Position numbers and translations under genes: made by a program. A stretch of DNA of 64,000 nucleotides, taken from contig NZ_CABPSJ010000006.1 of NCBI RefSeq assembly GCF_902459745.1, forward strand, positions 124,001 through 188,000, written 5' to 3'. The notes under the pieces are model-generated. The model saw only the letters and a program-made list of their open reading frames with translations, had not been told where the DNA came from and ran no database searches. Of this stretch, positions 4,921 through 21,430 are shown piece by piece. Every line of letters begins with the position of its first letter. Positions within the stretch are counted from its first letter, which is position 1. Origin of the DNA: Pandoraea communis. GTDB taxonomy: Bacteria; Pseudomonadota; Gammaproteobacteria; Burkholderiales; Burkholderiaceae.

Positions 4921-5883
4921 ATGCGCCGACGTCTGCTGCAAGCGGCCTCGCTCGCTATGTGCCTGCCGCTGGCCGCCTGCGATCGCGCCGTCGGCATCGG
5001 CGGCACGTTCCTGCAACTCTGGCGCGAACATCTGGACTGGGGCCCCGAGCAGTGGCGTGCACGCATTGCCATGACACGCGCGCTCGGGTGCCAGGAAGTC
5101 TTCGTTCAATGGATCGCCCTGTACGGCAATTCGGCGAGCGAATGGCAGGCTTCGGCGGCATTTCTCTCGCGTCTACTCGATGAATGTGCCGCCCAAGGTA
5201 TGGGGGTGCATCTGGGGGTGCCCTACGACGAACGCTGGTGGGCCGTCCTCGGAAGCCCCGACGCCACCGCCCTCGACAGCTATCTGAACGACGCGCACGA
5301 CCGTGTCGCCGCCACCTTGCGCGACTCGGCGTGGCCGCGTCATCCGGCGTTTCGCGGCTGGTATCTGCCCTACGAACTGGAGCAATACAGTTGGTCGGAT
5401 CCGGTGCGACTCGACAAGATCGCCAGTTGGCTTGGCACGCTCTCGCGCCTGTCGCACGATTCCTGCGGACGTGCCCCGTCGATCTCCACGTTCTATAGCC
5501 ATCTCCAGGGGCCGGGCACATTGCAGGACATGTGGCGCACACTGCTGAATCGAACCGACGTCTACCCCATGATTCAGGACGGCGTCGGCGAATGGGGGGT
5601 CGAGAACTACGACGCCCTTGCCCCGCTTCGCGAGCTTTTCCTCTCGGGCGGCACGAAGTTCGATCTGATTCTGGAACTGTTCCAGAGCGCGCCGGACGGC
5701 AAGAAGGATGGCACCGACTTCAAGGCACATGCCGCGAGCTTCTCACGCGTGCAGAAGCAGTGGGATATCGCGCGCGACTATGGCGCGCAACGGGTGATCG
5801 CCTTCGCGGTGGATCCGTGGGTGCTTGGCGACACGCCGCAAGCGCGCACGCTGTTGCGCCGCTGGCAGTCGGCGATGCGCTAG
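4921..5883 (+). CDS. DUF4434 family lipoprotein, glycoside-hydrolase-like
   Basis: Exported lipoprotein of about 320 residues. The N-terminus is MRRRLLQ, a hydrophobic stretch, and a lipobox LAAC with the cysteine near residue 20. The mature part looks like a DUF4434 TIM barrel: GWYLPYELEQ in the middle and DLILELFQ later supply glutamates where a retaining hydrolase would have them. Another ATG 24 bases upstream (4897) is possible, but the start at 4921 gives the cleaner signal. It points towards the end of the leftward polysaccharide operon, and a role in trimming or clearing the glycan in the periplasm is inferred from that position. Confidence 0.72.
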   Translation: MRRRLLQAASLAMCLPLAACDRAVGIGGTFLQLWREHLDWGPEQWRARIAMTRALGCQEVFVQWIALYGNSASEWQASAAFLSRLLDECAAQGMGVHLGVPYDERWWAVLGSPDATALDSYLNDAHDRVAATLRDSAWPRHPAFRGWYLPYELEQYSWSDPVRLDKIASWLGTLSRLSHDSCGRAPSISTFYSHLQGPGTLQDMWRTLLNRTDVYPMIQDGVGEWGVENYDALAPLRELFLSGGTKFDLILELFQSAPDGKKDGTDFKAHAASFSRVQKQWDIARDYGAQRVIAFAVDPWVLGDTPQARTLLRRWQSAMR

Positions 5884-5919
5884 AACGTTCTCAGGCGTCG
5901 TTCAGAGACGCCTGCACGT

Positions 5920-6327
5920 TCAGGCCGCTTCGACGATTTCGATGATGTTCCCGTTAGGCAGGAACAGGAAAACGATGCGGCGGCCGCCGAAGGCAATCGC
6001 CGGCGCGGGCTCCGCCGTACGGCGTGCGCCCGTATCCTCCAGCGCCGCCAGCGTGCGATCGAATTCGCGGGTCTCGAAGGCCTGGTGATACATCTTCGTA
6101 CGACGCTTGAGCACGCCCTCCACGGGCGATCCTTCTGCGCTGGGCGCGAGCAGTTCAAGACGCGGCCCCGGTCCCGTCAGAAAGCGTCCGCGCACGCGCT
6201 GAATCGGGTCTTCGAACTCAGGCGACTCCAACGAATAGCCCAGCACTTCCCAATAGGCCTGTTCGGCATCGAGATCGCGGCAGGCAATGCCGATGTGATG
6301 AAAGGTGCAACCAAGGTCGGTCAACAT
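5920..6327 (-). CDS. VOC (glyoxalase-like) family protein
   Basis: Single-domain vicinal-oxygen-chelate protein of 135 residues. The start TFHHIGIACRDL and end GNIIEIVEAA give the usual metal-ligand region with histidine near residue 11 and glutamate near 131, as in methylmalonyl-CoA epimerase and glyoxalase relatives. It is the last gene of the leftward operon, 9 bases after the MBOAT stop. This proximity to the MBOAT, ACP and FkbH genes suggests it processes the small hydroxyacyl or acyl-thioester donor. The reaction itself cannot be read from the sequence. Confidence 0.75.
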   Translation of the reverse strand: MLTDLGCTFHHIGIACRDLDAEQAYWEVLGYSLESPEFEDPIQRVRGRFLTGPGPRLELLAPSAEGSPVEGVLKRRTKMYHQAFETREFDRTLAALEDTGARRTAEPAPAIAFGGRRIVFLFLPNGNIIEIVEAA

Positions 6328-6336
6328 GATCGGGCG

Positions 6337-7929
6337 TCAGAACTGGAAATATAGGAAGCGGGCCGTCTTGTGCAGATTGAGCGCGGCATAGGCCAGTACG
6401 ACCGTCGACAGCACGGTCCACACCAGCGTCGGGCGCCATTGCAGCCAGCGCGGTGCGCCTGCGGCAGGCCCTTCCAGCGCAGGAGAGTACACGTTCATGA
6501 TCTGATTCGAGTTTGGCGCGCACCAGACCACCACGAGCAGCACTGCGATCAGCAGGCCCTGACTCCAGCGGTCCAGGAACAGACGCAGAATGTCGCCTGC
6601 CGTCCAGCTCGGATCGGCGTGCGTCAACGCCTGCAACGGGTAAAACACCGGAGCGAGCGGCTCAAGGCCGTTCATGCCGAGCAAGTTGCCAACGAGCGTG
6701 AAAGCATCGTGCGTGCTATGCGCGCGGAAGAACAGCAGCGCGAACACCACACACAGGAAGGTAAGCACGACGTACCCTGCGCGTGCGAATCCCGTCGCCG
6801 GTTGCGCACGCTTCGGACCGAACTGGCGCCACGCGTGATTCACGCTCAGATACGTGCCATGCAGCAGACCGAAAATGAGGAACTGCAACCCGGCCCCGTG
6901 CCAGACACCGGCGAGTCCCATCGTGAAGACCGTCGGAAACAAGATCATGCTGCTAAAGCCGCGCGCCGTCCCCGTCGCCTTGCGCCCGACCGACAGCCCC
7001 TTGCGAGCGCGCGCGCGCGTGATGGTCATGGCAACCGGGTTGTAAAGATAGGCCGTCAGATAGCGCGTGAGCGTCATGTGAAAGCGCGTCCAGAACTCGA
7101 TGATGCCGGTCGACTTGTAGGGCGAGTTGAAGTTGAGCGGGAAGCGGATGCCGAACATCTTCGCCAGCCCCATCGCCATATCCGAATAGCCGGAAAAATC
7201 GAAGTACAGTTGCAACGCGTAGGCCAGCGCCGTGCCCCATGCCGCGAAAAATTGCAACTCGCCGGGTGAATTGAAGCCTGCTTCGGCCCACGGCGCGATG
7301 CTGTCCGCGAGCAATACCTTCTTGGCAAGACCGATGATGAACAGCGTGGCGCCGATCGACAGATTCTCGGCCTTGAACCGGTAGCTCTCCCGGTCGGCGA
7401 ACTGCGGCATCATCTCCTTGTGATGCAGAATCGGACCGGCGATCAGGTGCGGGAAGAACGTGACGAACAACACATAGCTCACGAAACCCCGCTCACGGAC
7501 CACACCCGCGCGGCAATCGAGCAGAAAGCCGAGCTGCGTGAACGTGAAGAACGAGATTCCCAGCGGCAGGATCATCTCGCTCACGCTATGCGAGCCGAGG
7601 CCATATCCGGCGAGGAAGTCGAGTAACGCGACGAGATACTTGTAATAGAAGAGCAGCCCGAGATTCGCAACGATGCCCCCCGTCAGAATCCACGATTGGA
7701 GGCGCGGGCGGTTTTCCGTCGACAGAATGGCAAGGCTCACGACATAGTTGAACGCGATCGACCCGAGCAGCAGCGTCACAAATACCGGGTTCCACCAGCT
7801 GTAGAACACCAGCGAGGTGATGCACAGCCATGCGGCGGCCGCGATGGGGCGCAACGCTCCAGCGAGGTAGTACCCGCCCAGCGAAATGGGCAGGAACAGC
7901 AGGAGAAATGGCAGGGAATTGAACAGCAT
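6337..7929 (-). CDS. MBOAT family O-acyltransferase (AlgI-like)
   Basis: Polytopic inner-membrane protein of 530 residues with the MBOAT signature. A WHG near residue 342 is followed by FGLLHG, giving the two histidines of the family, and YFDFSGYSDMA sits upstream. AlgI-type proteins pass acyl groups across the membrane for polysaccharide decoration together with AlgJ/AlgX/AlgF-type partners, all of which are encoded in this locus. Here an acyl carrier protein and an FkbH-like enzyme lie directly upstream, so the donor may be an ACP thioester other than acetyl-CoA. It is 50 bases downstream of the ACP gene in the same direction. Confidence 0.93.
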   Translation of the reverse strand: MLFNSLPFLLLFLPISLGGYYLAGALRPIAAAAWLCITSLVFYSWWNPVFVTLLLGSIAFNYVVSLAILSTENRPRLQSWILTGGIVANLGLLFYYKYLVALLDFLAGYGLGSHSVSEMILPLGISFFTFTQLGFLLDCRAGVVRERGFVSYVLFVTFFPHLIAGPILHHKEMMPQFADRESYRFKAENLSIGATLFIIGLAKKVLLADSIAPWAEAGFNSPGELQFFAAWGTALAYALQLYFDFSGYSDMAMGLAKMFGIRFPLNFNSPYKSTGIIEFWTRFHMTLTRYLTAYLYNPVAMTITRARARKGLSVGRKATGTARGFSSMILFPTVFTMGLAGVWHGAGLQFLIFGLLHGTYLSVNHAWRQFGPKRAQPATGFARAGYVVLTFLCVVFALLFFRAHSTHDAFTLVGNLLGMNGLEPLAPVFYPLQALTHADPSWTAGDILRLFLDRWSQGLLIAVLLVVVWCAPNSNQIMNVYSPALEGPAAGAPRWLQWRPTLVWTVLSTVVLAYAALNLHKTARFLYFQF

Positions 7930-7979
7930 ACCGGGGAATCTGTATCGAATAGTCGCGAGACCTTACGGCTGACGTGCGC

Positions 7980-8231
7980 TCAGCGCTTGGCAGCCAGTTG
8001 TTTCTTGATCAACTCGATGAGTTCACCGACGTTTTTCAGTCCCTCGACTTCCGAAGTCTTGAAACGCACGCCGAAACGCATTTCGGTCGCGACCATGATG
8101 TTGACGTTCGAGAGCGAATCCCAGGCGTCGAAGTCCGCTGCGGACGATTGTGGCGTAATGGTCACGGCGTCGTCGTCGAAAATGTCGCGGAAGATATCGG
8201 TCAGCGCGTCGAGGATTTCGGTGTCGGTCAT
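7980..8231 (-). CDS. Acyl carrier protein
   Basis: Freestanding acyl carrier protein of 83 residues. The phosphopantetheine attachment serine is Ser39 in FDAWDSLSNV, and the chain is acidic and helical as expected. The ATG at 8231 overlaps the FkbH stop by 4 bases (ATGA), which fixes the start and indicates translational coupling. Such ACPs paired with FkbH-like enzymes carry glyceryl or other small hydroxyacyl groups in known natural-product pathways. Here the neighbour on the other side is an MBOAT, so the acyl group is probably handed to a polysaccharide. Confidence 0.93.
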   Translation of the reverse strand: MTDTEILDALTDIFRDIFDDDAVTITPQSSAADFDAWDSLSNVNIMVATEMRFGVRFKTSEVEGLKNVGELIELIKKQLAAKR

Positions 8232-10129
8232 TTCATGCTCCTGATTTCCATGGGTGCACTTTGTGGAGAGAACTCGCCAAGGTCCAGCACCCATTCGGTG
8301 GCGTTCTCGTGTTCTGCAAGCGATGCGAAGCCAAGATTCTGGTAGTGATGCTTGACCATGCCGTTCTTCGCTGTCGGAATATACTCGCCAATCAGCCGTT
8401 TGGCCCCGGCGGCACGCGCCTGCTCGGCCAGCACGCCCAGCGTGGCCCGCTCGACCTCACGGCCGAGCACGCGGCAACTCATCAGCCACGTGTCGATACG
8501 CCAGTCGCCTTCGGCACCGGCTTTCGTGTCCGGCAATGCCGCAATGACCGCGATGATGCCGTTGTCGCCAAAACTGTCTTTCAGACGGAAGTGCAGCAGT
8601 ACGGCGCGCGGATCGCGCATCATCTCCAGGACTTCATCTTCCGTGTGACGGCGCGTTGTCAGATTGAACTGATTCGTCTTGCCCATGAGCTGCACGACGC
8701 GCGGCAGATCGGTGGTGTTGAACGTGTTCCATTCGAGCACCATCTGCAAGCTGGCCAGATAAGACGCCAGATCCTTCTGGCTCGTACGCATCGCTTCACG
8801 CTGCAGGTTCGCCTGATACAGACCGGCACGCTCGCGATCTTCGGCGGTCAGCGTCACGCCTTCAAAGTACCCGCCACGTGCGATCGTCGACGCGTACAAC
8901 GCCGGGTCCTCCGGCATCTCCGGCACGTTCACCATCGGCAGTTCTCGCCGCACCAGATTGCGCTCGAACGGATTGTCGTCGGCGAACACCAGCGCATCGA
9001 GACCGATATTGAGCTGCGAAGCGATCGTGCGCAAATTGCTCGCCTTGTCCTGCCAGTTCGCCACGAAGCATGCGATGTCGTCGCGCTTGAGCACCATCTC
9101 CGGATGAGACGTGAACGGTTGCAGCGCGTTGGCTTCGTCGTTCTTGGAGCACACGGCGAGGATCACACCCCGGCGCGTCAGATCGCGTGCATAGCGCTGG
9201 AACGCCGCGTAAGCTTCGCCTTCGCCGTTACCCTGGCCCAGCACAATACCCGCCAGACCGTCGTCGCCGATCACACCACCCCACAGCGTGTTGTCCAGAT
9301 CGAGCACGAGGCACTTCGCACTCGCACCTCGGCGCGCAGCAATAAGACGCGCCACCAGATCGCCGTAGGCCGGCGCTGCCGCTGGCGTGACGTACTGTTT
9401 CGCGCGCAACCACAGACGCGGATCGTGCCACGCGTTCAGGCCGTCTTGCTCGCATGCGTCGTCGAGTGCAAGGATATCGACACCGGCCTCGTCGGCAGCC
9501 TGACGCATCGCCTTGTTCAAACGGTGCGTAAGCCAGCGCGCAGCGCCCGGCATGCGTTGCTCGTTGTTGCCCATGAGCGCCACCTGCGTCGGCATCAGCG
9601 TTTGCTGGATGACGTGAGCGCCAATATCCTCCCGCAGGCGACGCCACAGCTCACGCAGATTGTCGATCGCGCCCGCCACGATTGCGTCGGCATCGGTGGC
9701 CGTCATTGCCGCCGTCTCATTGCCGATCAGATGCTGCGAATCGAACGCGCACAGCGCCACGTTGGGCGCGAAAGCGTAAAGGCCGGACGACGGGTCCAGA
9801 GTTTCGCGCAGGTACTGGCCGTAGTCGGGCACGTACATCTGCATCCACAGATTGCGACGCAACGCGCCAACGCGCAGCCCTGGCAGCAACTGGTCCATCG
9901 TCGACGAACCGAGCACGGCCAGACGCACCGGCGGTGTCGTCAGCGCCGTAGGCGCCTGCGTGCCATAGGCCTTGATCAGACGCTTGTCGAGCTTCGCAGT
10001 CTGCACAAAGTCCAGGTTCTCGTTGGCGAGCCTCGTCAGCTCGCTCCATGCGGGCGCGACATCCCTCGGCAAGGCATCCACTTGCTGCGCCCAGTCGGGC
10101 GAGCAAGGCAACCAATTCAGTTCCGGCAT
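8228..10129 (-). CDS. FkbH-like HAD-superfamily acyl-loading enzyme
   Basis: Protein of 633 residues in three parts: an N-terminal SGNH-like region (LGSSTMDQ near 74), a HAD phosphatase-type domain whose motif DLDNTLWGG lies at about 277-285, and a C-terminal GNAT-like region from about 490. This is the FkbH/IIIC arrangement. Known relatives take a three-carbon phosphorylated substrate such as 1,3-bisphosphoglycerate, dephosphorylate it and load glyceryl on an ACP. Coupling to the ACP gene by a 4-base overlap supports such a pairing. Whether the group here is glyceryl, lactyl or another is not decided by the sequence. A gap of about 140 bases separates it from the AlgJ-like gene upstream. Confidence 0.9.
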   Translation of the reverse strand: MPELNWLPCSPDWAQQVDALPRDVAPAWSELTRLANENLDFVQTAKLDKRLIKAYGTQAPTALTTPPVRLAVLGSSTMDQLLPGLRVGALRRNLWMQMYVPDYGQYLRETLDPSSGLYAFAPNVALCAFDSQHLIGNETAAMTATDADAIVAGAIDNLRELWRRLREDIGAHVIQQTLMPTQVALMGNNEQRMPGAARWLTHRLNKAMRQAADEAGVDILALDDACEQDGLNAWHDPRLWLRAKQYVTPAAAPAYGDLVARLIAARRGASAKCLVLDLDNTLWGGVIGDDGLAGIVLGQGNGEGEAYAAFQRYARDLTRRGVILAVCSKNDEANALQPFTSHPEMVLKRDDIACFVANWQDKASNLRTIASQLNIGLDALVFADDNPFERNLVRRELPMVNVPEMPEDPALYASTIARGGYFEGVTLTAEDRERAGLYQANLQREAMRTSQKDLASYLASLQMVLEWNTFNTTDLPRVVQLMGKTNQFNLTTRRHTEDEVLEMMRDPRAVLLHFRLKDSFGDNGIIAVIAALPDTKAGAEGDWRIDTWLMSCRVLGREVERATLGVLAEQARAAGAKRLIGEYIPTAKNGMVKHHYQNLGFASLAEHENATEWVLDLGEFSPQSAPMEIRSMK

Positions 10130-10270
10130 GAGCGTATCCAGAGAGAAAAAATGACGGCGTGCAACGCGCGCCTGGCAATCTTTCGGGGCCGATATTCACC
10201 CTATCGGCCGCTATCACAACGTAGGCACGTCTGGCCTTATCCTCGATGTACCCGATGTCGCTCGTGTGCT

Positions 10271-11383
10271 TCAACGGTCATCCAGCAGCGCCTTCTCCTG
10301 CTCCGTCAACGGCTGGAGCAGTGACATCTCCGACATCTCCCAAATCACTAGCTTCAGGCTCTTCGGCCAGCGCTCGCGCTCCTGCATGGCCTGAACGAGC
10401 GCATCGGCAAACTTGCCGCCGTCGCGACTCTGATTCCAGACAGACTGACCGAGCGACTGTCCCAATTGCTCGGCGAAGTTGCTGCGACGCGAATTCGAAC
10501 TGCCGGCCAGCAACACTTCGACGGGTGGGCCATCGTCGAGCAACCCACCGCTGGCGGGTAACGTGAAGGTCTCCGGCACGTAACTATCCGGGGCCGGACG
10601 CCAACCGTCGGGGGCCTTCGCCAATCCGGCCAGCACCAGCAGATCGCCCACGCGCGGCACAGCGCGCGGCGCGCGCGATATGTCGTAGCGCAACTCGCCC
10701 TTCTCCCCCACCAGCGGCAGTGCCGCCTTCGCTACGGCCTGTGCTGCAACGGCCGCACCGGTCTGATTCATGTGCACGTCGGTGCGATAGAAAGCATCGG
10801 GCATGGGTTGCAGAACTTGCGCAAGATCCACATGCGCCACGTGGGCAACGTCGAGTGCCTGCTGCCACTGCGCGAGTCCCATCACGGTGCCGACGGGACG
10901 CGTCATGCCGCAAAGCGCGTTCGCAGCGATACGCGACTTGTCCGGGACGGTCACCACCAGCACCTTGACGTTATCGGCACGCAGTTGCGCGGTGAGCCGG
11001 CGCATCAACGCAATGCGCTTGTCAATCACGGCGCGCACATCCCCAACGGGTGCGCGCACGCCGTCGGTGTAGAACAACCACCCCGGGCACCCCTGCTGAA
11101 CCTGGGTGCCCAGTTGTCCCAGCACTCGGTAGCGCCAGGCGGCGTCTGCCGTTTCCATCGTGTCGCGAAACGGCAGGGCCAGCGAAGCATCGAGGCGTTT
11201 TCCTGCCGTGCCGTCGAGCCACGCTTTCGGCGCAAAATCGCCCAGTCCGGCCTTGGCGGACTCATACACGCCGTAGATCAGGCCGATGACCATCATCAAC
11301 CCGAAGCACCAGGCCGTCAGTCGATGCGAGACCTGCGCGAGCGGTGCTGTTACGGCATCCGGCGAAGAAGTCGACAAGCTCAT
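10271..11383 (-). CDS. AlgJ-like SGNH acyltransferase, membrane-anchored
   Basis: About 370 residues with one N-terminal membrane segment (about 20-42) and a periplasmic SGNH-fold domain. D202 and H204 in YRTDVHMN match the Asp-His pair of AlgJ/AlgX, and GSSNS near 294-298 supplies the nucleophile serine. AlgJ-type proteins accept the acyl group from the MBOAT protein and place it on the glycan. The start at 11383 is chosen because it follows the upstream stop by 7 bases; a longer form from 11434 would overlap the AlgX-like gene by 44 bases. Confidence 0.85.
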   Translation of the reverse strand: MSLSTSSPDAVTAPLAQVSHRLTAWCFGLMMVIGLIYGVYESAKAGLGDFAPKAWLDGTAGKRLDASLALPFRDTMETADAAWRYRVLGQLGTQVQQGCPGWLFYTDGVRAPVGDVRAVIDKRIALMRRLTAQLRADNVKVLVVTVPDKSRIAANALCGMTRPVGTVMGLAQWQQALDVAHVAHVDLAQVLQPMPDAFYRTDVHMNQTGAAVAAQAVAKAALPLVGEKGELRYDISRAPRAVPRVGDLLVLAGLAKAPDGWRPAPDSYVPETFTLPASGGLLDDGPPVEVLLAGSSNSRRSNFAEQLGQSLGQSVWNQSRDGGKFADALVQAMQERERWPKSLKLVIWEMSEMSLLQPLTEQEKALLDDR

Positions 11384-11390
11384 GGGCGCA

Positions 11391-12374
11391 TCACTTGGCG
11401 ATAGCGGCCGCGACACGTTCGCGCCATGCAGCATCAGTCATGAGCGAAGCGGCGTCCCACTGGCCGCTCGTGTTCGGGCCGTACAGCATCTGCACTTCGT
11501 TGAGTTGCCACACCACCACTTGCGGACGCGCCTGCTGGAAAGCCGGCGATTCCAGATACTGCGCAAACACGGCCCACGGCCCGAAATTGCCGTACTTCCA
11601 CGTGAGCCCGACCGGCCGGTCAATATCCGCCGAGAGCGCCTGCGGGAAGCCGAGGTACGGCTGAACGAAACTGTTGCCCACCACGTGAACCGGGGAAGCG
11701 ACATCGTCCAGCAGACCGCCTTCTTCGGCCTTGTTCGAGCGCACGACGTAGATTTCCTGCCCCACCGCCTTACGCTGTGCGGCCGTCATCAAGTCTGCGA
11801 AATCGGCGAAACGACGTTCCTTGATCCAATTGCCCAGTTTCTTGCCGGTGCCCGGTTGGCCGGTCAGCGACCAGTTTTTCTTGATGACGTCGGCGGTCGC
11901 GGCGGCCGCTGCTTCGGCACTCCACGCGGTCCAGTGCGAGTCCTTCTGGAAAAACGCGGTCTGGTTGTCGTGCGCCACACCCTTGAGCACAGGCATCAGA
12001 TCGACCGTCTGAATATCGGCGCGACGCAGGCTGTCGATCATCTGCGCATACCGATCGCGTACCGCCGGCGCCATGGCCGTTCCTGCGGGCAGCTTGTCTT
12101 CGTAGAAACGGGCCTTGAGCGGAGCCACGATCACGACCAGACCGATGCCCTTGGCCTTGAGCGCATCGCGCGCCGAGCGCATGAGATTCACCGAATTATC
12201 GATGCCGGCACGGCCTGCGTCGGTCATGTTGTCCTGCGCATAGAACAGCCAGTCGTCCTTACCGATGAGTACGGCTTGCGCCTGAGCGCTCACGGCGCCA
12301 AAGCAGGCGCAGGCGACCAGCAGGCCAGACACCAGCTTCCGGGCACTTCTCGGGAAATCAGCGTTCAGTTTCAT
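11391..12374 (-). CDS. AlgX/AlgJ-like periplasmic acyltransferase
   Basis: Exported protein of 327 residues with a signal peptide ending near residue 33 (VSAQAQA). The SGNH-type catalytic set is visible: D145, H147 in KDSHW, and S235 in VVGNSF. It is shorter than Pseudomonas AlgX (about 470 residues) and seems to lack the C-terminal carbohydrate-binding module. It lies just upstream of the AlgJ-like gene and 88 bases downstream of the AlgF-like gene. A role in transferring acyl groups to the exported polysaccharide in the periplasm is the natural reading. Confidence 0.86.
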   Translation of the reverse strand: MKLNADFPRSARKLVSGLLVACACFGAVSAQAQAVLIGKDDWLFYAQDNMTDAGRAGIDNSVNLMRSARDALKAKGIGLVVIVAPLKARFYEDKLPAGTAMAPAVRDRYAQMIDSLRRADIQTVDLMPVLKGVAHDNQTAFFQKDSHWTAWSAEAAAAATADVIKKNWSLTGQPGTGKKLGNWIKERRFADFADLMTAAQRKAVGQEIYVVRSNKAEEGGLLDDVASPVHVVGNSFVQPYLGFPQALSADIDRPVGLTWKYGNFGPWAVFAQYLESPAFQQARPQVVVWQLNEVQMLYGPNTSGQWDAASLMTDAAWRERVAAAIAK

Positions 12375-12462
12375 GATGCTTACGATGATGGATTGTCGTG
12401 TTCTGACGATGACACCTGCGCGCGTCGGTTACCGCAACAGGTGCTATAGCTCAGGCCGAACC

Positions 12463-13173
12463 TCAGTTAGCCCGATAGGGCAGCACCCGATTAGTTGCCC
12501 CGACCAGCACGGGCGACTGTGCCGTCCCCACGAGGAACAGGCTGTAGCGGTCACCGCCCTTTAACGGCGGAAGCGCCAGCGGCACAGAGGCGTGTCCCGC
12601 ACATTCGCCCACCAGCGACGCCGAGACGGGATTGATGGCACGCGCAGCGCGTGTGCCGTCGGCCACATTCGGGAAAACGGTCGGACCGTTCGCCACGCCG
12701 ATCTTGGCGGTGCAGCCGGGCACGAGATTGTATATCGCCAACTCCGCCTTCAGACCGTCGACCACGGTGCTCACGTCGGTGATGACCTTGACCGGTGCGC
12801 TCGCTTGCGCGCCGTCCACCACCAGCGTCACGAAGCCGCCCTTCGGGGCCTTGCTCGCCACCTCTACGGTGCGCCCGTTCACCTTGAGGACATACGCCTG
12901 AGCGCCCGGCAGCACGCGGTAGTCGGACACGATCTTGTCGTTCGCTGCGAGCGACTCGGCCTTCGCGCCGGCGCCCAGTTGCACGCCGACGGCCGTGTTG
13001 GCGACGTTGAGCACACGCACGTAGACTGACCCGTCGGGCGGCAACGCGTACAGCTTTGCGATATCGTCGGCAGGGGCGGCGTGCGCCGCTGTGCCGAGGG
13101 CCGCCAGTGCTGCTGCGGCCAGGGCTTTGCCTTCACCCGGCAAACGGTTGAGCAATGCGAACATATTCGTCAT
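12463..13173 (-). CDS. AlgF-like periplasmic protein
   Basis: Exported protein of 236 residues. A signal peptide ends near AAHA (about 32) and is followed by two beta-rich repeats typical of AlgF, the adaptor of alginate O-acetylation. The start is the ATG at 13173, which shares one base with the upstream stop (TGATG), indicating coupling to the NfrA-like gene; a TTG one codon earlier is also possible. Together with the MBOAT, AlgJ- and AlgX-like genes it completes an alginate-type acylation set, although no alginate-specific epimerase or lyase is present. Confidence 0.82.
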   Translation of the reverse strand: MTNMFALLNRLPGEGKALAAAALAALGTAAHAAPADDIAKLYALPPDGSVYVRVLNVANTAVGVQLGAGAKAESLAANDKIVSDYRVLPGAQAYVLKVNGRTVEVASKAPKGGFVTLVVDGAQASAPVKVITDVSTVVDGLKAELAIYNLVPGCTAKIGVANGPTVFPNVADGTRAARAINPVSASLVGECAGHASVPLALPPLKGGDRYSLFLVGTAQSPVLVGATNRVLPYRAN

Positions 13174-15407
13174 CAATAAGAGAAATAGAGGCCGGCAAAG
13201 ATGCCCTGGGAGCGATCGTCGCCTGCGATGCGCACGCGGTACTGCACGTTCAGATCGATGAACGATTGCGGCGCATGATACTTATCTTCACGGAACCACC
13301 AGCGTGCCGTCACGCCCGGACCGACGCCCATCGTGAAGCGCTGCGCGAGCAGGCTGTCGAATCCGGCGGTGGCCCCCAGATACGGGGTGAGCACAAGATT
13401 GCTGTTGATGCTGTCCATGCGGAACGAGCGGCCGTAGCGGGCTTCGGCAGTGCCAAGCGTCTGCGGGTGGTCGATGAAGTAGTCGCCTTCGGCATATAAC
13501 TGCCAGTACTGCCAATTCGACTTGTCGACACGCAGAGCGCCGCCCTCGCCTTCCGACCACGCCGCGCGCAGTAGCCAGTCGGTACGGCTGTTGCTGCCGG
13601 CGGGAATGAATTTTTCAACGGCAAACACGAAGTTCTGGCGACTGAACGGCTTCCAGCGCGCGCCAAGCACCCCCTGGTTCGTCGAGAGCCCGGTCACCCC
13701 TCCCGTGCCGTCGTACAGCGCCTGATTCATGCGTGCGTAGACTTCGAAAGTGCTGCCGTCACGGTTGCCGATCACGGGCGGACGCCAGTAGATCTCTTCC
13801 GAGGACTGCAAGGTCTTGCGTGCGCTCAGCGACGGTGAAAAGGCCGAGTTCATTACGCCGACGGTGCCGTAGCCAAGCGCCGCAACGAAGCCCCAGGTGC
13901 GATCGAGATCCGACACGGCCTGCCGCACGTTCTGCCGTGCCTGCGGTTCGAGTTCGATCTGGCCAGCGTCGGCGGCATCGATCGCACGCGAGAACCAAAA
14001 GCTCGCCTGCTTGTTGTCATAGAGACGCTGGGCGCTGTAAGCCGCGTCGAGCAAGCTCTCCGGCGGCACATCGGTACGCGTGGCGATCGGCGCATAGACC
14101 TCGCGGGCTTCATCCTTGTGCCCGGCCAGGCTAAGGGCGTTGACGAGCAGCAGACGATACGCTTGATTGTCCGGTGCAGCATCGAGCGCCTCACGCGCGG
14201 ACTTTGCCGCTGCATCGTAATCCTTCTTCGCCATCGAGGCATAGGCTTGCGCTGCCGCTTCGTAGCCGGGGCCGCTGCCTGCGAGGCTTGAGCCGGCCGG
14301 CAACAGGTTGCACAGCACGTCCTGCGAGTCCGACGTACAGAAGACGACCGGCGCTTCGTCGGCCGGGCCGCGCACGCGACGCGTGTCGACCGGGCGCAGC
14401 GTGTCGGACGCAATGCGCTTGACCGTCGCGAGTTGCGGCTCTGAGAGCCAGTCCTGTGCAACGGCTTTGTCGAGGTCCTTGCGCGCGTCGTCCGGGCGAT
14501 TGAGTTTCTGCCGCGCAAAGCCGCGCATGGCGAGCGACAGCGCATCCTCACCGTCCTGCGAAAGCGCATCGGACGCGGCGGCGTCGGCCTCCGCATATTG
14601 CCCTTCGCTCAGCAGCGCGCCAGTGAGGAGATAGTGATAGCTCTGCACGTCGGGGGCCTGCCGGACAGCCTGACGCGCCAGACCGACGGCCTTGGTGTAG
14701 TCGCGCTCGCGGTAAGCGTCCCATGCCGCCATCGCGGGAGCCGGCGCGAGCCGCCGGTGCATGCGATCGCGCAACGCCTGAAACGCTTCGTCGTCAGGTG
14801 TGAGACGAAGAGCCGCATCGGCCTCATCGGCAGCAGCCTGCACCTTGTCCTGACGCTCGAGCGAATAGATCAGCAGGCTGCGCATGCCCGAATTGCCAGG
14901 CGCCAGACGAAGCGATTCCCGGGCGTTGCGTTCGGCCTCATCGTAGCGGCCGGCGGCATACGCCTTGTAGGCCGAATCGCCTGCCTTATACGCGGGTGAC
15001 TGCATCGTGCCGCCAACGGCATCGCCCTTGCCTGTCGCCGCTTTCGGTGCGAGCGACGCACGCAGGTTCTCGCGGGCCGCGCTCAGCGCCGGATCGCGGT
15101 GCCCCTGAGCGATGGCCTGTTCTGCCATCTCCAGCGCCTGCTTCGTACGCCCCATGTTCTGCAAGGCGTAGATACGCAGCAACCACAATCTCGTGACGTC
15201 CGGGCGCAAGGCCAGCGCCTTGGCGGCCTGTGCCTCGGCGCCCTTGTAGTCCTTACGGTTGTACGCCTTGAATGCGGCGTCCCCGAATTGCCACGCCGGC
15301 CCTTCAAGCGGGGCTTCAACGGCCGCGCTGGCTGGCGCCGCAAGCGCGCCGGCCGACAGACTGGCCAGCACGGCGGTGTAGCAAAGGGAACGGGTGAAGA
15401 ACATCAT
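13173..15407 (-). CDS. NfrA-like TPR and outer-membrane barrel protein
   Basis: Exported protein of 744 residues. A signal peptide (about 1-25) leads into tetratricopeptide-like repeats from about 35 to 470, including repeated AYKAGD, AYNRKD and AYRERD units. The C-terminal 230 residues look like a beta-barrel ending in LYFSY, with the aromatic last residue of outer-membrane proteins, and match the NfrA C-terminal domain. E. coli NfrA is the outer-membrane partner of the NfrB glycan synthase and a phage N4 receptor component. The same gene pair order here supports an export-pore role. It overlaps the NfrB-like stop. Confidence 0.85.
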   Translation of the reverse strand: MMFFTRSLCYTAVLASLSAGALAAPASAAVEAPLEGPAWQFGDAAFKAYNRKDYKGAEAQAAKALALRPDVTRLWLLRIYALQNMGRTKQALEMAEQAIAQGHRDPALSAARENLRASLAPKAATGKGDAVGGTMQSPAYKAGDSAYKAYAAGRYDEAERNARESLRLAPGNSGMRSLLIYSLERQDKVQAAADEADAALRLTPDDEAFQALRDRMHRRLAPAPAMAAWDAYRERDYTKAVGLARQAVRQAPDVQSYHYLLTGALLSEGQYAEADAAASDALSQDGEDALSLAMRGFARQKLNRPDDARKDLDKAVAQDWLSEPQLATVKRIASDTLRPVDTRRVRGPADEAPVVFCTSDSQDVLCNLLPAGSSLAGSGPGYEAAAQAYASMAKKDYDAAAKSAREALDAAPDNQAYRLLLVNALSLAGHKDEAREVYAPIATRTDVPPESLLDAAYSAQRLYDNKQASFWFSRAIDAADAGQIELEPQARQNVRQAVSDLDRTWGFVAALGYGTVGVMNSAFSPSLSARKTLQSSEEIYWRPPVIGNRDGSTFEVYARMNQALYDGTGGVTGLSTNQGVLGARWKPFSRQNFVFAVEKFIPAGSNSRTDWLLRAAWSEGEGGALRVDKSNWQYWQLYAEGDYFIDHPQTLGTAEARYGRSFRMDSINSNLVLTPYLGATAGFDSLLAQRFTMGVGPGVTARWWFREDKYHAPQSFIDLNVQYRVRIAGDDRSQGIFAGLYFSY

Positions 15408-17161
15408 GTGGCCGTCTTACTCAGTTTAGGGGGTCCTGCTTGCGATGCCGGGACAATCGGCACGCCTTGTTGGAATGAAATCGCCTCGTGCAGCGTTGCC
15501 TCGTCCAGCCAGCCCTGCTCGATGAGAATCTCGCCAAGCTGGCGGCCTTCGCGCTTTTGCACGTCGAGTGCATACGCCAGCTTCGTCTCGTCGATGGCTT
15601 GCCATGACATGAGCAGCTCGCCCAGACGCTGACGCTGTTGCGAGAGCTGGTCGGTAGACGGGAAATCGTGCATCGTCTTGTCCCAGACCAGCCGCTTGCC
15701 CGTCACCAGGTGAACGATGAATAAGCGCCATGCCCGGGCGGCCGCCATCGCGTTGATGAAGTTGCCGATGACCATGCGCGGAAACGCCAGCAACGCGTGC
15801 TCCCAGCCGTACATGTGAAATACGAAGTAGCTGCGCTGAAAAACGCGCAGTGCGAGCGCTGCGGCGTTGATCCCCATGAGCGTCACGAGCCAGCCGTTCG
15901 CCGGGAACACCGAAGGGTAATAAATCTTCCACCAGCCCATCTTGTCCGCGAGCAGGAAGATCAGGAAGTTGAGCAGCAGCACATACGCGAGAATCGCCAC
16001 GAACGATGTCGCCAGACCCTTGCGGTCGCGAAACAGCAGATACTTCGTGGCGAGCGACCCTTCCCAGCCGACCTGCGCCCAGCCCTGTAAGCCGATACCC
16101 AGCGTCCAGCGCGCCTTCTGACGGTAAGCGGTCTTGAACGTGTTGGGGAAGTATTCGCGAATGCCCAGCGGCATGCTGATCGTCGAAATCTTCTCCTTGC
16201 CGAAGCCGAACAGCGAAGTCCGCTTGGTCACATACTCGACCGGAAACTTGCCGAAGATCTGCTTCATGCCGCGCTGCGACAGACGCTGACCGATGTCATA
16301 GTCCTCGGTCAACGTGTCCGTGTTGAACGGCTGGTTGTTTGTCTCTGCCGCGAGTTCTTCGAGCGCTCTGCGGGAGAAGCAAGTTCCCACGCCTGCCGAC
16401 GGCACCATCTTCGACATGCTCTCGCGCACCACCAGATCCTTGGTGTGCCACTCGGCGAACTCGTCCATGTACGTGCCGGCAACGAGTTCATACCACTCGC
16501 GCTCAAGCGATGTCACCGGCAACTGAATGAAGTCGATGCGCGGCATCAGGTAGTTGTAGTACTTCAGCTCCAACGGGTGAAGCACGTCCTCACTGTCATG
16601 CAAAATCACGCCCGCGAACGGCTCGGGCTGCGACTGGTTCTGCTTGAAAATTGCCTGCACGATCCAGTTCAGACAGTCGGCCTTGCAGGTTGGACCGTCG
16701 TGCGGCACCTGCACGTGCACGAGCTGGCGATACCGGCGGCGCATACGCTCAACTTCGGTCTTCGTCTTGTCGTCGTTCTTGTACGTGCCGACGAAGATCA
16801 TGTAGTTTTTGTATTCGAGTGTACCCACCATGCTCTCGAGCATGGCCGCGATCACGTCGTACTCCAGCCACGCGGGCACCATGATCGCGAGCGGCTGCTC
16901 GCGCACCGCACGCAACTGCGACGCCTGCAACGGCGTGTAGCGCCGCCGAATGAACAGCGACCGATAGATCTGGCGCACCCAGTACCAGAGATCGACGAAC
17001 AGGTCGTCGAGACTCGATAGCAAAATGACGACGCCGACTACCGCGCTCACGATTTCGAGCGCGTGGTAGTAGTCGGCGACCAGATACGGCCAATAGAGCG
17101 AAGAGATCACGTCGACCTGCTGCGAGTGCTTAACGATCGTTCTTGTTCTTTCGGCCTGCAC
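15404..17161 (-). CDS. nfrB: NfrB-like family 2 glycosyltransferase with C-terminal MshEN-type domain
   Basis: Membrane glycan synthase of 585 residues. One membrane segment near 28-50 precedes a GT-2 domain with HDSED (about 185), TEDYD (about 283) and QKARW (about 347), the D, DxD, TED and QxxRW pattern of processive synthases. Further membrane segments follow at about 370-460. The last 75 residues carry two tandem MshEN-like motifs, RLGELL...AL..Q (about 510) and QLGEIL...A..FQ (about 540), the fold that binds cyclic di-GMP in MshE and NfrB. E. coli NfrB makes a ManNAc-type glycan with WecB, and wecB heads this operon. The start overlaps the BcsB-like gene by 32 bases; a GTG at 17109 is an alternative. 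Confidence 0.9.
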   Translation of the reverse strand: MQAERTRTIVKHSQQVDVISSLYWPYLVADYYHALEIVSAVVGVVILLSSLDDLFVDLWYWVRQIYRSLFIRRRYTPLQASQLRAVREQPLAIMVPAWLEYDVIAAMLESMVGTLEYKNYMIFVGTYKNDDKTKTEVERMRRRYRQLVHVQVPHDGPTCKADCLNWIVQAIFKQNQSQPEPFAGVILHDSEDVLHPLELKYYNYLMPRIDFIQLPVTSLEREWYELVAGTYMDEFAEWHTKDLVVRESMSKMVPSAGVGTCFSRRALEELAAETNNQPFNTDTLTEDYDIGQRLSQRGMKQIFGKFPVEYVTKRTSLFGFGKEKISTISMPLGIREYFPNTFKTAYRQKARWTLGIGLQGWAQVGWEGSLATKYLLFRDRKGLATSFVAILAYVLLLNFLIFLLADKMGWWKIYYPSVFPANGWLVTLMGINAAALALRVFQRSYFVFHMYGWEHALLAFPRMVIGNFINAMAAARAWRLFIVHLVTGKRLVWDKTMHDFPSTDQLSQQRQRLGELLMSWQAIDETKLAYALDVQKREGRQLGEILIEQGWLDEATLHEAISFQQGVPIVPASQAGPPKLSKTAT

Positions 17162-19496
17162 GCAGCGCCAGCACCAGCAGCGTCAGGAAGATGAGCAGCA
17201 CGATGGCGATCGTCGGCACGCCCCACGAGACGTAACGGCGCCACTCGTAGAACGCACTTTCACCTGCGCCCGGCGGCAAGCTCGCGTCCGGGTTGCTGGT
17301 ATCGATCCATGCCACGGGACCGGCCGGTCCGATGATTGCCAGATTGCCGCGGTTGAGCAGGAACGGCACGCCGACATCGGCCTTCGGTTCACCGATGGCG
17401 TACCACAGCAGACCGTCTTGACCGCCGCCGCGCACGACCTCTGCCGTCGACAGCTGTTGCAGACCCGTGATGTCGAGCCACTTGGCGTCCTTACCGCCGA
17501 TCTCCAGACGCTTGCGATCGGTCACGACCGCAGACGGCTTCGCGCCATCGACCTGCACTTCCATCGCCACGAACGGCTTGCCCGGCTTCACGCTCTTGTC
17601 GGTGGGCGCCACCGTCAATTCGGCACGCGAGGGCGACAGACCGCTCGCCGCTGCGATACCGATCACACGGCGGATATTTTCGGGCGCCGATTGCAGATAG
17701 CGTTCCGGCACGATCAGTTGCGCGTTGCCCGCCATAAGCGGCAACAGGCCGACGAAGGTGCCGTCCGGCTCCGCTTTGCCCGGGCGGACATAGCTGGCAG
17801 CGGGCAGCACATTGACCGGATAAGCCTGCGGAATCTCGTTACAGTCGGCCGAATACGGCTGGCGTTGCACCGAGACCCGCAGATTGTTGGTCACGCCAAG
17901 CGCATAGCCCGGCACGCGAGCCTTGAGTTGTTCCGGACGGCCATTGGCATCCAATTGCTTCGCGGCCAGCAGAATGCCGTTCCAGAACACGGTCGCCACC
18001 GGCTTGGAAGTCGCCGGACCAGGCGCCGCCGACAGATACAGCGAGATCTCGCCGGGCATGCTGCCGCCCGAGGCCACGGCGGAGAGCGGGAAACTCACCA
18101 CCCAGTCGCCGCGCGCCAGTACGTCGAAGCTATCTGCCGAGCCACCGAGGCTCGACAGACGCACGACTTGCTTGTCTTCGATATCCGGCGTGCGAGCGAT
18201 CGGTGCGGTCACATTGCTCGACAGCAACACGCGGCGCAGCGAATCGTCGAACAGACCGGAGGCTTGCGCACCGGCGCCGGCGGCAATGGCGATCACCGAC
18301 CGGTTGCCCATCGACAGCAGACGGATCTGATTCGCGCCCAGCGCATCGGTAGCGAGCGGTGCACGTTGGGCACGCCATGTCTTGAAGGCGTCCGTGGCAT
18401 CGCTGTCGTTGACCAGTTGCCCTTGCAGTGCGTCGAAAGCGGTAGCCAGGCGCGTGCGCATCGCAGCGTCCGAAACGGCGATTTCGCCGCTCACTGCCGG
18501 GGCCCCGACAGCCAGCAGCGCGCCGAGTTCGGCATCGTTGGCCAGCTTGTGCGCCGCATTGTTGTCCTTGATGGCGGCAAACGCAGGCACGCCGGCAAGC
18601 GCGGCGGGCACGACCACATCGCGGGTGTCCACCGTATCTCCCACGGCCGGCAGTGCGCGCACGACCACACGCTTACCGCTGCGCTCAAGCGCGACACCGA
18701 TACGCCATGCGCTGTCGAACGCCTCCTTGCTCAGGGTTTTCGATGCAATGAGCAGCGCGGGCGAGCCCGGCAACGTGCTCCACGCGTCGTCCAGGCTGGT
18801 GACCGACTTCTGGTCAATTCGATAGGTCAGACGCGTTTGCGGCATGATCGTCACCGAATTGGCAAGCGAATGATCCGGCTCGCAGCGATAGGTGCCGGTG
18901 CGCGAATGCCAATTCACACCGAGGCGCACGAAGCCGGTGTCGCGCGGACGCGACGGCACGGCCAGACTGCGCTGAAGCGGCCCGTCGCCATCCGGCACCG
19001 ACTGCGAAGTCAGGGGCTGACCGTCGATCGACAGCACGACCGAAGCCGGGCCCTTCTCCCCCTTCAGATAGCGGCCATCGAAGGTGAGCGAAGCGTCGGC
19101 CAGCGGCAACCCCTTCGGAACGGGAAGATAAAAATCCTGGTTTGCGTCACCAGACAGCACGATCGGCGCCGTGACGCCGAGGTCGGCAAGCGCAATGGTG
19201 CGCGATAGGTTAGCGCCCGCCCCCAACGCCCGGACACCGTCGCCCAGCGCGCTAGCGTGAGATACGGCTGGCAGCATCACGCCGGCAGCCAGCGCGCTAA
19301 GCGCCAGGGTCGAAGTCGCACGGCTCACGGCGCGCTGCGCGCGCGACGGCTGGCGGGAGGAAACGCTGTGGGTGGTCATCCGATTAGGCAACGGCATGGG
19401 TATTCCGTGAGTTGACGTGACGTTGCGCAGACGCGACGGCACGGAGTAGAACGGCACCGGCAAATCCGGCAAATTCGCGTACACGTGATCGGACAC
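17130..19496 (-). CDS. BcsB-like cellulose synthase regulatory-subunit family protein
   Basis: Large periplasmic protein anchored by one C-terminal membrane helix (about 755-778), with the beta-sandwich and jelly-roll organisation of BcsB. A signal-like hydrophobic segment (LALSALAAGVML) lies near residues 63-75, which suggests the real start may be one of the ATGs at 19397 or 19379. The GTG at 19496 has GGGAG about 8 bases upstream and is kept here. BcsB binds the emerging polymer next to its synthase. No BcsA, PilZ domain or BcsZ/BcsC is encoded nearby, so it presumably serves the NfrB-like synthase. Confidence 0.85.
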   Translation of the reverse strand: MSDHVYANLPDLPVPFYSVPSRLRNVTSTHGIPMPLPNRMTTHSVSSRQPSRAQRAVSRATSTLALSALAAGVMLPAVSHASALGDGVRALGAGANLSRTIALADLGVTAPIVLSGDANQDFYLPVPKGLPLADASLTFDGRYLKGEKGPASVVLSIDGQPLTSQSVPDGDGPLQRSLAVPSRPRDTGFVRLGVNWHSRTGTYRCEPDHSLANSVTIMPQTRLTYRIDQKSVTSLDDAWSTLPGSPALLIASKTLSKEAFDSAWRIGVALERSGKRVVVRALPAVGDTVDTRDVVVPAALAGVPAFAAIKDNNAAHKLANDAELGALLAVGAPAVSGEIAVSDAAMRTRLATAFDALQGQLVNDSDATDAFKTWRAQRAPLATDALGANQIRLLSMGNRSVIAIAAGAGAQASGLFDDSLRRVLLSSNVTAPIARTPDIEDKQVVRLSSLGGSADSFDVLARGDWVVSFPLSAVASGGSMPGEISLYLSAAPGPATSKPVATVFWNGILLAAKQLDANGRPEQLKARVPGYALGVTNNLRVSVQRQPYSADCNEIPQAYPVNVLPAASYVRPGKAEPDGTFVGLLPLMAGNAQLIVPERYLQSAPENIRRVIGIAAASGLSPSRAELTVAPTDKSVKPGKPFVAMEVQVDGAKPSAVVTDRKRLEIGGKDAKWLDITGLQQLSTAEVVRGGGQDGLLWYAIGEPKADVGVPFLLNRGNLAIIGPAGPVAWIDTSNPDASLPPGAGESAFYEWRRYVSWGVPTIAIVLLIFLTLLVLALRAGRKNKNDR

Positions 19497-19511
19497 GGTC
19501 GGCGCTCCCGA

Positions 19512-20681
19512 TCAATTGACGCTCGAAGCGTCTGGGCTGCCCATCAGTCCGGGGGCGAACTCTGCCACCGGACGTCCGCACAGTGCGTCGACGATGCGAC
19601 CCGCCGCATGGCCATCGCCATACGGGTTCAGGCGTCGCGAGAACGACGTGTGATATGCCTGATCATCCAGAAGACGCATCACGCCTTCGATGATGCGTCC
19701 CCGGTTTGCACCGACCAGCGCCACCGTGCCGGCCTCGACCGCTTCGGGCCGCTCGGTGACGTCTCGCATCACCAGCACCGGCTTCCCAAGGAACGGCGCT
19801 TCTTCCTGCACGCCCCCCGAGTCGGTGAGGATCACGTAGGCGCGCTGCATGAACCAGACAAAATCGACGTAATCGAGTGGATCGATCAGATGCACGTTGC
19901 CGAAGCCGGCCAGCTCGGTCATCACCACTTCGCGAACCGCCGGGTTCAGATGCACCGGGTAGACGATCTGTACATCGTCGCGCCGTGCGAGTTCGGCAAG
20001 CGCGGCGCAGATGTTGCGGAAACCATCGCCGAAACTCTCGCGACGGTGGCCCGTCACGAGTACCAGACGGCGCGATGCGTCAAGCCACGAATAACGCGCC
20101 GATACGGCAGCGGCGAGCGGCGAGTCATCGCGCAGGCGGGCGGTGAGTGCCGCGAGCGCATCGATCACGGTATTGCCTGTCACGGCAATTCGGCCGTGCA
20201 GGTTTTCACGCAGAAGGTTCTCCCGAGATGTCGCAGTCGGCGCGAACAACCAATCGCCAACACTGTCGACCACGCGGCGATTCATCTCTTCGGGAAACGG
20301 TTTTGACAGGTCGCCAGTACGCAGACCGGCCTCCACATGACCGACCGGAATGCGGCGGTGGAAGGCAGCGAGTGCGCAAGCAGAGGCCGTGCTCGTGTCG
20401 CCGTGAACCAACACGTAATCGGGCTTTTCGGTTTCCAGTACTGCGTCGACCCGTTCGATGGTCCGCGAGAAGAGGCCGTTGAGCGTTTGATTGGGCACCA
20501 TGACCTCAAGGTCGTACTTGGCCTTGAGATCGAATAACGACATCACCTGATCGAGCATCTGCCGATGCTGACCGGTTACACACACCACGCTATCGATACC
20601 GGGTTCGCGATTGAGCGCCGTCACGAGAGGCGCCATCTTGATCGCTTCGGGACGCGTGCCGAAGATAGACAGGACTTTCAT
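19512..20681 (-). CDS. wecB: UDP-N-acetylglucosamine 2-epimerase (non-hydrolysing)
   Basis: Cytoplasmic enzyme of 389 residues that interconverts UDP-GlcNAc and UDP-ManNAc. Family motifs are intact: GTRPEAIKMAP at the N-terminus, HGDTSTA, HVEAGLRT, PEEMNR, TGHRRESFG and DSGGVQEEA. The start MKVLSIFGTRP at 20681 matches the family; upstream in-frame ATGs lead into unlikely basic sequence. It is the first gene of the leftward operon and lies 15 bases before the BcsB-like gene. It is the only sugar-nucleotide enzyme in the operon, so ManNAc (or a derivative) is the likely building block. Confidence 0.96.
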   Translation of the reverse strand: MKVLSIFGTRPEAIKMAPLVTALNREPGIDSVVCVTGQHRQMLDQVMSLFDLKAKYDLEVMVPNQTLNGLFSRTIERVDAVLETEKPDYVLVHGDTSTASACALAAFHRRIPVGHVEAGLRTGDLSKPFPEEMNRRVVDSVGDWLFAPTATSRENLLRENLHGRIAVTGNTVIDALAALTARLRDDSPLAAAVSARYSWLDASRRLVLVTGHRRESFGDGFRNICAALAELARRDDVQIVYPVHLNPAVREVVMTELAGFGNVHLIDPLDYVDFVWFMQRAYVILTDSGGVQEEAPFLGKPVLVMRDVTERPEAVEAGTVALVGANRGRIIEGVMRLLDDQAYHTSFSRRLNPYGDGHAAGRIVDALCGRPVAEFAPGLMGSPDASSVN

Positions 20682-21238
20682 AGTTCTACGTTTTCGTCGG
20701 AGCCTATTCATGCCGTGCGGCACTCAGGCTTCATTTGCCCCTGGAAACTTCAGGCAAGGGCGGTGTGTGGCATGAGGTCGAGCCCCCGCATCGAATCCAA
20801 TTCGATTACATTGGAAGCCGACTTATTTCGATGAATTTGGCCATCTCGACTGGCGATCATCAATGCGCAGGCGAGAATACCTGGATCGATGCGCGCCTCT
20901 TACCACCTGTGTGTTCGCACGGCGCCGTTCCCCTCCCGGCATCCCATGCAAACTCGATGACGGATGGTATAAGCCAATCGTCCCCTTACTGTCCCCCCGA
21001 TATTCGGAAGATTACTCATGTCGCGCAGGCACAACACCTGAAGTCCGGCAGAGGCGGGATCGGAGGGGTAGCGAAAGCGACGAAACCCCCGTGCCGACGC
21101 CGGAATCGACGTCGAGGCGGGGCCCACGCACTGGAAAATAGTCAGGCAGATTTATTGATTTCCCGATCGTCATGAAACCGTCATTGCGCATGACGACTGT
21201 GCGATCGCATAAGGAAATCAATAGGAACGGTAAACGCA
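20682..21238. other. Long non-coding leader region of the polysaccharide operon
   Basis: About 560 bases separate wecB from the tRNA terminator. No reading frame here looks like a protein on either strand. As all genes to the left are transcribed away from it, the operon promoter must lie within it, but I could not pick a convincing -35/-10 pair. The length leaves room for regulator sites or an untranslated leader. Confidence 0.4.
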
Positions 21239-21413: not shown

Positions 21414-21430
21414 GGAAACTGTCATTCGTT

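Follow-up and report, generated by a model that had tools for sequence, protein, structure and literature searches.

A 64,000-nucleotide stretch of Pandoraea communis contig NZ_CABPSJ010000006.1 (the window; all coordinates are window positions) carries a polysaccharide locus of the Nfr type (NfrB-NfrA-WecB) that also encodes a BcsB-like protein and has MBOAT, AlgX, and AlgF genes, among which lie genes for an acyl carrier protein (ACP) and an FkbH-like carrier loader. We propose, with a probability of about 0.6, that the locus is controlled by cyclic di-GMP (c-di-GMP), that its polymer is acylated from the ACP, likely with glyceryl groups loaded by FkbH, and that the acylation genes belong to a cassette alternating with one that has a DltA-like loader. 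In this mechanism, WecB would supply UDP-N-acetylmannosamine (UDP-ManNAc), which NfrB would polymerize once c-di-GMP binds its MshEN domain; the BcsB-like protein would guide the chain through the periplasm, and NfrA would export it, acylation from the carrier protein preceding export. FkbH would charge the ACP with a three-carbon acid, for which the glyceryl group of 1,3-bisphosphoglycerate is the likeliest candidate; the MBOAT would pass the acyl group through the membrane onto the tyrosine in the FLYFQF motif at its own C-terminus, and two AlgX/AlgJ-like SGNH proteins, assisted by AlgF, would place it on the sugar. Finally, nfrA, the acylation set, and a YbcH homologue would be swapped, in either direction, with the homologous cassette, while wecB-bcsB-nfrB is kept.

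Gene Content of the Locus

The island and its genes are as follows.

4684..21233, both strands: island comprising the YbcH homologue, the 11-gene minus-strand series, and the 5' intergenic region of the series; delimited by five empty sites
4744..5883, plus: YbcH homologue (DUF4434), on the strand opposite to the series; PF14488 8.1e-55
5920..6327, minus: VOC protein (glyoxalase/methylmalonyl-CoA epimerase superfamily); PF13669 7e-17
6337..7929, minus: MBOAT acyltransferase with C-terminal FLYFQF (Tyr527) and His344 within GVWHG; PF03062 1.5e-19
7980..8231, minus: acyl carrier protein, 83 residues, Ser in DSL; PF00550 24.7 bits, cut-off 20.8
8228..10129, minus: FkbH-like carrier loader (FkbH_N, HAD, C-terminal acyltransferase-like region); TIGR01686 309 bits, cut-off 147
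10271..11383, minus: AlgX/AlgJ-like SGNH protein 2, ATG at 11383; PF16822 2.9e-60
11391..12374, minus: AlgX/AlgJ-like SGNH protein 1; PF16822 2.5e-65
12463..13173, minus: AlgF-like protein; PF11182 3.5e-14
13173..15407, minus: NfrA-like TPR/outer-membrane protein, 744 residues; PF13283 (NfrA_C) 8.5e-57 plus TPR repeats
15404..17110 (frame opens at 17161), minus: NfrB-like synthase with MshEN c-di-GMP domain; NF012033 935 bits, NF053729 58 bits
17130..19496, minus: BcsB-like protein, start uncertain; orthologues at L032 to L036 pass PF03170
19512..20681, minus: WecB, UDP-GlcNAc 2-epimerase; TIGR00236 473 bits, cut-off 210

An earlier note on this DNA had described a leftward series of wecB, BcsB-like, NfrB-like, NfrA-like, and AlgF/AlgX/AlgJ/MBOAT-like genes, and every one of them is present, close-packed on the minus strand; FkbH, the ACP, the VOC protein, and the plus-strand YbcH homologue had been overlooked. 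Its gene overlaps stand in part: those of nfrB/nfrA (15404-15407) and fkbH/acp (8228-8231) are true four-base overlaps, but that of bcsB/nfrB is probably not real, since comparison with the open reading frame (ORF) of the related locus L018 places the conserved nfrB start near 17110.

The assignment to the Nfr/NGR group is carried by four linked genes. NfrB scores well above the cut-off of 537 bits for its family model (NF012033), contains the processive GT2 signatures DSED, TED, and QKARW, and matches the c-di-GMP MshEN motif model (NF053729, cut-off 38 bits) at residues 512-564; it is 42% identical to Escherichia coli NfrB over 539 residues, although shorter (585 vs. 745 residues). NfrA, an outer-membrane TPR protein, aligns at 27% identity with the C-terminal portion of its E. 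coli counterpart (E 1e-12), and with NfrA alone as the query no sequence match was found in the PDB. Beside WecB, the fourth member is the YbcH homologue (27% identity to E. coli YbcH over 188 residues, E 5e-12); E. coli YbcH likewise belongs to PF14488 and is encoded by the third gene of the nfr operon. The window thus shares WecB, NfrB with MshEN, NfrA, and YbcH homologues with the E. coli system (NfrB-NfrA-YbcH with WecB), which makes the NGR glycan, a receptor for phage N4; beyond these, it encodes a BcsB-like protein and a set of acylation proteins that includes a carrier protein.

The earlier note held this composition to be that of no described system, a claim that published clusters contradict. 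As far as the main texts tell, the core composition is the same in Achromobacter xylosoxidans, where nfrA, nfrB, and wecB cluster with a BcsB homologue and periplasmic O-acetyltransferase homologues (PMC8669472), and in Simplicispira suum, whose nfr cluster has alginate-type acetyltransferase genes (PMC8669469). The predicted product, an acylated, probably ManNAc-based and c-di-GMP-controlled polymer, is still the best reading of the gene content; what does not survive is the description of the acylation as alginate-style, given the ACP and loader found in all 17 acylating loci described below.

The BcsB-like protein has, by eye, a signal-like N-terminus and a C-terminal hydrophobic segment that fit BcsB. 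The window protein has no Pfam match; the Pfam cut-off for BcsB (PF03170) is passed by the orthologues at L032, L033, L034, L035, and L036 and failed by those at L019 and L031. When profiles were compared, two true BcsB proteins matched the N-terminal part only, at E 0.0012 and 19% probability, and sequence searches of the PDB, started from the single protein or from its profile, returned nothing or chance-level matches. As a query it matched 13 loci in named genomes: nine in Pandoraea, one in Burkholderia (lig30), one in Trinickia, and two in Delftia. BcsA is absent from the locus, as had been stated, and neither BcsA nor PilZ is found among the island's genes; the same genome encodes a separate cellulose-type BcsB elsewhere (L057, C2:86898-88730; 730 bits), to which type the window protein would be distantly related at most.

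Carrier and Loader in Acylating nfr Loci

The ACP and FkbH genes are flanked by those for the MBOAT and the second AlgX-like protein. We surveyed nfr loci by an nfrB search that, counting the window's own genome each time, was positive at E 1e-60 in 14 of 32 genomes of the genus and 16 of 399 of the order, and at E 1e-100 in 6 of 369 of the class. Stretches of up to 20 kb around each nfrB were read, yielding 34 nfr loci including the window, and gene presence was called by tblastn at 1e-4 with proteins of the window and of L016, a locus with a DltA-like loader. MBOAT, AlgX, and AlgF genes occur together in half of the loci (17/34), and each of the 17 adds an ACP and a single loader, which is FkbH in 4 and a DltA-like ligase in 13, with both in 0 and neither in 0. 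The FkbH-form loci are the window, L018, L020, and L024, all from Pandoraea, and the DltA form comprises ten Pandoraea loci plus L031, L032, and L033. At the same threshold, which strongly diverged copies could escape, the remaining 17 loci have none of the MBOAT, AlgX, AlgF, ACP, or loader genes; four of these stretches (L037, L045, L074, and L075) end at contig ends. The BcsB-like gene accompanies every acylating locus (17/17) and is also present in four loci without acylation genes (L034, L035, L036, and L072). Within Pandoraea, FkbH occurs in 4 of 32 genomes, always inside the nfr locus. At L033 (13197-15475, DltA form), MBOAT and AlgF are encoded on one strand and the DltA-like protein and ACP on the other.

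FkbH as a chance neighbor was considered and rejected, as a loader with an ACP is found in 17/17 acylating and 0/17 nonacylating nfr loci. The same distribution points to Dlt-like, carrier-fed acylation rather than acetylation from acetyl-CoA. Plain alginate-type O-acetylation, in which FkbH, the ACP, and the VOC protein would serve another pathway and share only the operon, agrees with the presence of AlgF and two ALGX-domain proteins, as in alginate, and with the wording of the main texts of PMC8669472 and PMC8669469, which speak of acetyltransferases in their own clusters; we nevertheless regard it as quite unlikely in view of the 17/17 and 0/17 counts, and because a change of cassette replaces the FkbH-ACP pair with a DltA-like pair instead of losing it.

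FkbH contains the motifs LDLDNTLW and SCRVLGR (PF21211, 1.2e-7; solved chain 3slr_A, 2e-69), and the signature of a glyceryl-ACP loader, an FkbH domain with its HAD motif and a partner ACP, is present. The MBOAT has DltB as its nearest NCBIfam model (171 bits, below the cut-off of 375) and matches solved DltB chains at E 5e-25, and its C-terminal FLYFQF recurs in 10/10 acylating loci checked. In the same ten loci, D.HW and GNS/GHS of AlgX-like protein 1 (DSHW and GNS in the window) are found throughout, while protein 2 (DVHM and GSS in the window) has DVHM in 10/10 and GSS in 8/10. According to the accessible text of PMC12148441, D-alanine passes to DltB from the carrier DltC; in other MBOATs the acyl group sits on the tyrosine of a C-terminal FXYXXF motif, from which an SGNH partner moves it to the polymer; and PatA uses acetyl-CoA as donor, without a dedicated carrier protein and loader. 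With the Dlt pathway (DltA, DltB, DltC, DltD, and DltX) the window locus has in common an MBOAT with a carrier protein, a shuttle tyrosine motif, and an SGNH partner, and carrier feeding is predicted for it likewise. Unlike that pathway, it has FkbH in place of DltA, its shuttle motif lies within the MBOAT itself, as in PatA-type enzymes, and its polymer would be an exported glycan; the sister cassette has a DltA-like loader that scores below the equivalog cut-off. Alginate O-acetylation (AlgI, AlgJ, AlgF, and AlgX) shares an MBOAT, two ALGX-domain proteins, and AlgF with the window, but AlgI takes its acetyl group from acetyl-CoA and is not known to use a dedicated carrier protein and loader, both of which the window has, and the synthase and porin of the window are Nfr-type.

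As to the acid that is loaded, the presence of FkbH suggests glyceryl esters, by analogy with polyketide and peptide pathways: FkbH with a stand-alone ACP, the arrangement shared with the window, is proposed from homology to make glyceryl-ACP (PMC7489565), and a similar proposal exists for an FkbH domain borne on a nonribosomal peptide synthetase (PMC13122637), both accessible texts naming 1,3-bisphosphoglycerate as the proposed substrate. Unlike those pathways, the island has no polyketide or peptide synthetase among its genes, and has an MBOAT and SGNH proteins instead. A different acid, either lactyl or a glyceryl group altered (e.g., epimerized) by the VOC protein, would account for the distribution of the latter, which is present in 4/4 FkbH-form and 0/13 DltA-form nfr loci and in 4/14 FkbH loci outside nfr; its best solved matches are of the glyoxalase type (Glyoxalase-I, 1e-16; lactoylglutathione lyase, 1.4e-16), ahead of methylmalonyl-CoA epimerase (1.2e-7), which would suit lactyl, and TIGR03081 gives it 51 bits, below the cut-off of 115. 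Its role as epimerase, glyoxalase, or other is a guess. Since the VOC gene is missing from 10/14 FkbH loci outside nfr, and given the substrate proposed in both FkbH papers, we consider another acid unlikely and retain glyceryl as the predicted group. For the DltA-like loader, represented by the protein of L016 (TIGR01734 336 bits, below the cut-off of 560), the best solved matches are gramicidin synthase adenylation domains followed by DltA chains (3e7w, 5.7e-71), with DltA chains ranking first over stretch 200-300; its FGAE differs from the FCGE or FDGE of five among the aligned solved DltA chains, so that no amino acid can be named.

We fetched 14 FkbH loci away from nfr, namely ten of the 14 non-window places found by one search (the four weakest being dropped) and all four new places found by another. 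An ACP is present in 11/14 and an MBOAT in 5/14 (L046, L048, L050, L052, and L068), so that FkbH and ACP recur as a pair, less often extended to a trio by an MBOAT; four of these five MBOATs, all but that of L048, end in F.Y..F, and the aligned pieces of the first ten loci contain the LD.DNT.W string in six. Two FkbH-ACP-MBOAT sets outside nfr lie at L046:5739-11018 and L068:8748-12487, the former with a MaoC/short-chain dehydrogenase protein between MBOAT and ACP and beside sugar-nucleotide genes. The FkbH-ACP pairs of L049 and L054 have neighbors that, judged by eye from the ORF list, we take to resemble flagellar hook and basal-body genes, and FkbH may therefore also acylate flagellar glycans.

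Literature searches turned up no nfr or exopolysaccharide acylation cluster described with FkbH or a carrier protein, nothing pairing NfrB with DltA or FkbH, and nothing joining FkbH, MBOAT, acyl carrier protein, and polysaccharide, supplements and most subscription papers lying outside the search; the main texts of PMC8669472 and PMC8669469, apart from their supplementary figures, do not mention an acyl carrier, Dlt, or DltA. What may be new to the literature is the predicted acylation from a carrier protein loaded by FkbH, encoded in a block for which a DltA-type block can stand in and with which the outer-membrane protein moves.

Two Cassette Forms in Pandoraea

Comparison of the window with 13 other Pandoraea loci separates a constant core from a variable block. 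WecB, BcsB, and NfrB are 76-93% identical to those of the other loci irrespective of form, NfrB alone being 87-91% identical to FkbH-form and 85-92% to DltA-form loci. The remaining proteins fall into two classes, with identities to FkbH-form vs. DltA-form loci of 85-90% vs. 34-37% for NfrA, 76-83% vs. 40-44% for AlgF, 92-94% vs. 59-61% for the MBOAT, 87-93% vs. 29-35% for the ACP, and 76-81% vs. 54-58% for the YbcH homologue, whose two alleles track the cassette form. Gene order and loader differ between the forms, and DNA similarity to the DltA-form loci stops within the final 60 bases of nfrB (15440-15463).

Phylogenies of the two parts conflict. In the core tree (wecB+bcsB+nfrB; 17 rows, 1739 columns), the window groups with P. 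horticolens (DltA form) and P. commovens (FkbH form) with support of 99/98, and P. capi (FkbH form) groups with the DltA-form locus L021 (99/99); forcing the four FkbH-form rows into one clade costs 188 log units (approximately unbiased test, p 8.6e-7). In the cassette tree (nfrA+algX1+algX2+MBOAT), the same four rows form one clade (100/100), and the test rejects a pairing of the window and P. horticolens (p 1e-53). Among DltA-form cassettes from Pandoraea, that of P. horticolens stands apart (nfrA 60-61% identical to the others), although grouping all ten in a single clade is not rejected (p 0.087). Groups for the topology tests were set by gene content, and FastTree versions had been viewed before the tests. 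GC content does not separate cassette from core (63.1 vs. 62.7%); with base composition uninformative, exchange rests on trees, identities, and alignments. The two-allele cassette and the tree conflict record an exchange, in which nfrA, the acylation genes, and the YbcH homologue appear to form one cassette of two deep alleles that has been swapped across species while wecB-bcsB-nfrB stays; transfer may have run in either direction. If the two forms were instead a single lineage that had diverged rapidly without exchange, the families common to both (NfrA, AlgX, AlgF, MBOAT, and ACP) would be expected, but among FkbH-form loci nfrA (85-90%) and MBOAT (92-94%) are as conserved as nfrB (87-91%), far above their 34-37% and 59-61% to the DltA form, and gene order, loader, and trees all disagree with this explanation, making it extremely improbable. 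At the DNA level, P. horticolens (L005) matches the window at 96% identity over the right flank (21238-26000) and at only 84% over the core (15463-20681), and so the whole island may also have been exchanged, in the window or in P. horticolens.

Several points weigh against the proposal as a whole. Tree testing relied on LG+G4, with no mixture model, and a warning of long branches was raised for the cassette tree. FkbH-ACP need not feed an MBOAT, as 9/14 FkbH loci elsewhere lack one, and the FkbH substrate is not readable from sequence, lactyl or another acid being possible. Neither the MBOAT nor the DltA-like protein reaches the equivalog cut-off of its model (DltB and DltA, respectively), and SGNH protein 2 of L032 and L033 is without the GSS string. 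The BcsB label is the weakest of the locus assignments, and the ManNAc polymer is itself postulated in E. coli (PMC8669472).

It is possible, and we put it forward tentatively, that a single cassette (nfrA, algF, the algX pair, MBOAT, carrier, loader, and the ybcH-like gene), with either a glycolysis-fed FkbH (glyceryl) or a DltA-like aminoacyl loader, is exchanged and thereby switches both the ester chemistry and the outer-membrane portal of an N4-receptor-type glycan. Both N4-type receptors would then change at once with the polymer synthase kept, because the primary and terminal receptors proposed for N4 in E. coli are, respectively, the glycan and NfrA (PMC8669472), which suggests a serotype-like switch relevant to N4-like phages. 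The vague label "acetylated" would give way to a testable prediction, namely glyceryl or related hydroxy-acid esters in FkbH-form strains and aminoacyl esters in DltA-form strains, and, if that prediction holds, envelope decoration in a Gram-negative bacterium would draw, via a carrier protein, on a glycolytic intermediate. Near-identical synthases with two acylation heads would also offer a natural comparison for the role of polymer acylation. That NfrA travels with the acylation genes suggests that portal and acylation enzymes act as one complex, for which AlgK-AlgX in alginate is a parallel (PMC9734138, accessible text).

Boundaries and Neighbors of the Island

Five other Pandoraea genomes (G001, G002, G004, G009, and G027), chosen because the genes flanking the locus lie less than 1 kb apart in them, have empty sites that join window positions 4680-4683 to 21234-21236 with 12-31 bases between. 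nfrB is missing from four of the five, and G009 has an nfr locus on another contig. These alignments place the unit at approximately 4684-21233, with the YbcH homologue inside, wider than the 5920-20681 of the earlier note. A tRNA-Glu/tRNA-Ala pair (21338-21506) adjoins the island and the empty site (flanks 4466-4683 and 21234-21538), and family searches gave no integrase match among the island's 12 genes.

An acyltransferase-3 family gene adjoins the island (2508-4334, plus strand; PF01757 4.1e-24). Its true start is probably later than that of the annotated frame, since 9 of 20 matching Pandoraea genomes align only from approximately residue 195-230 and others have upstream stops. On the other side, a CsgG-domain protein is encoded near the island at 24788-26269 (plus strand; 28.9 bits, cut-off 20.8).

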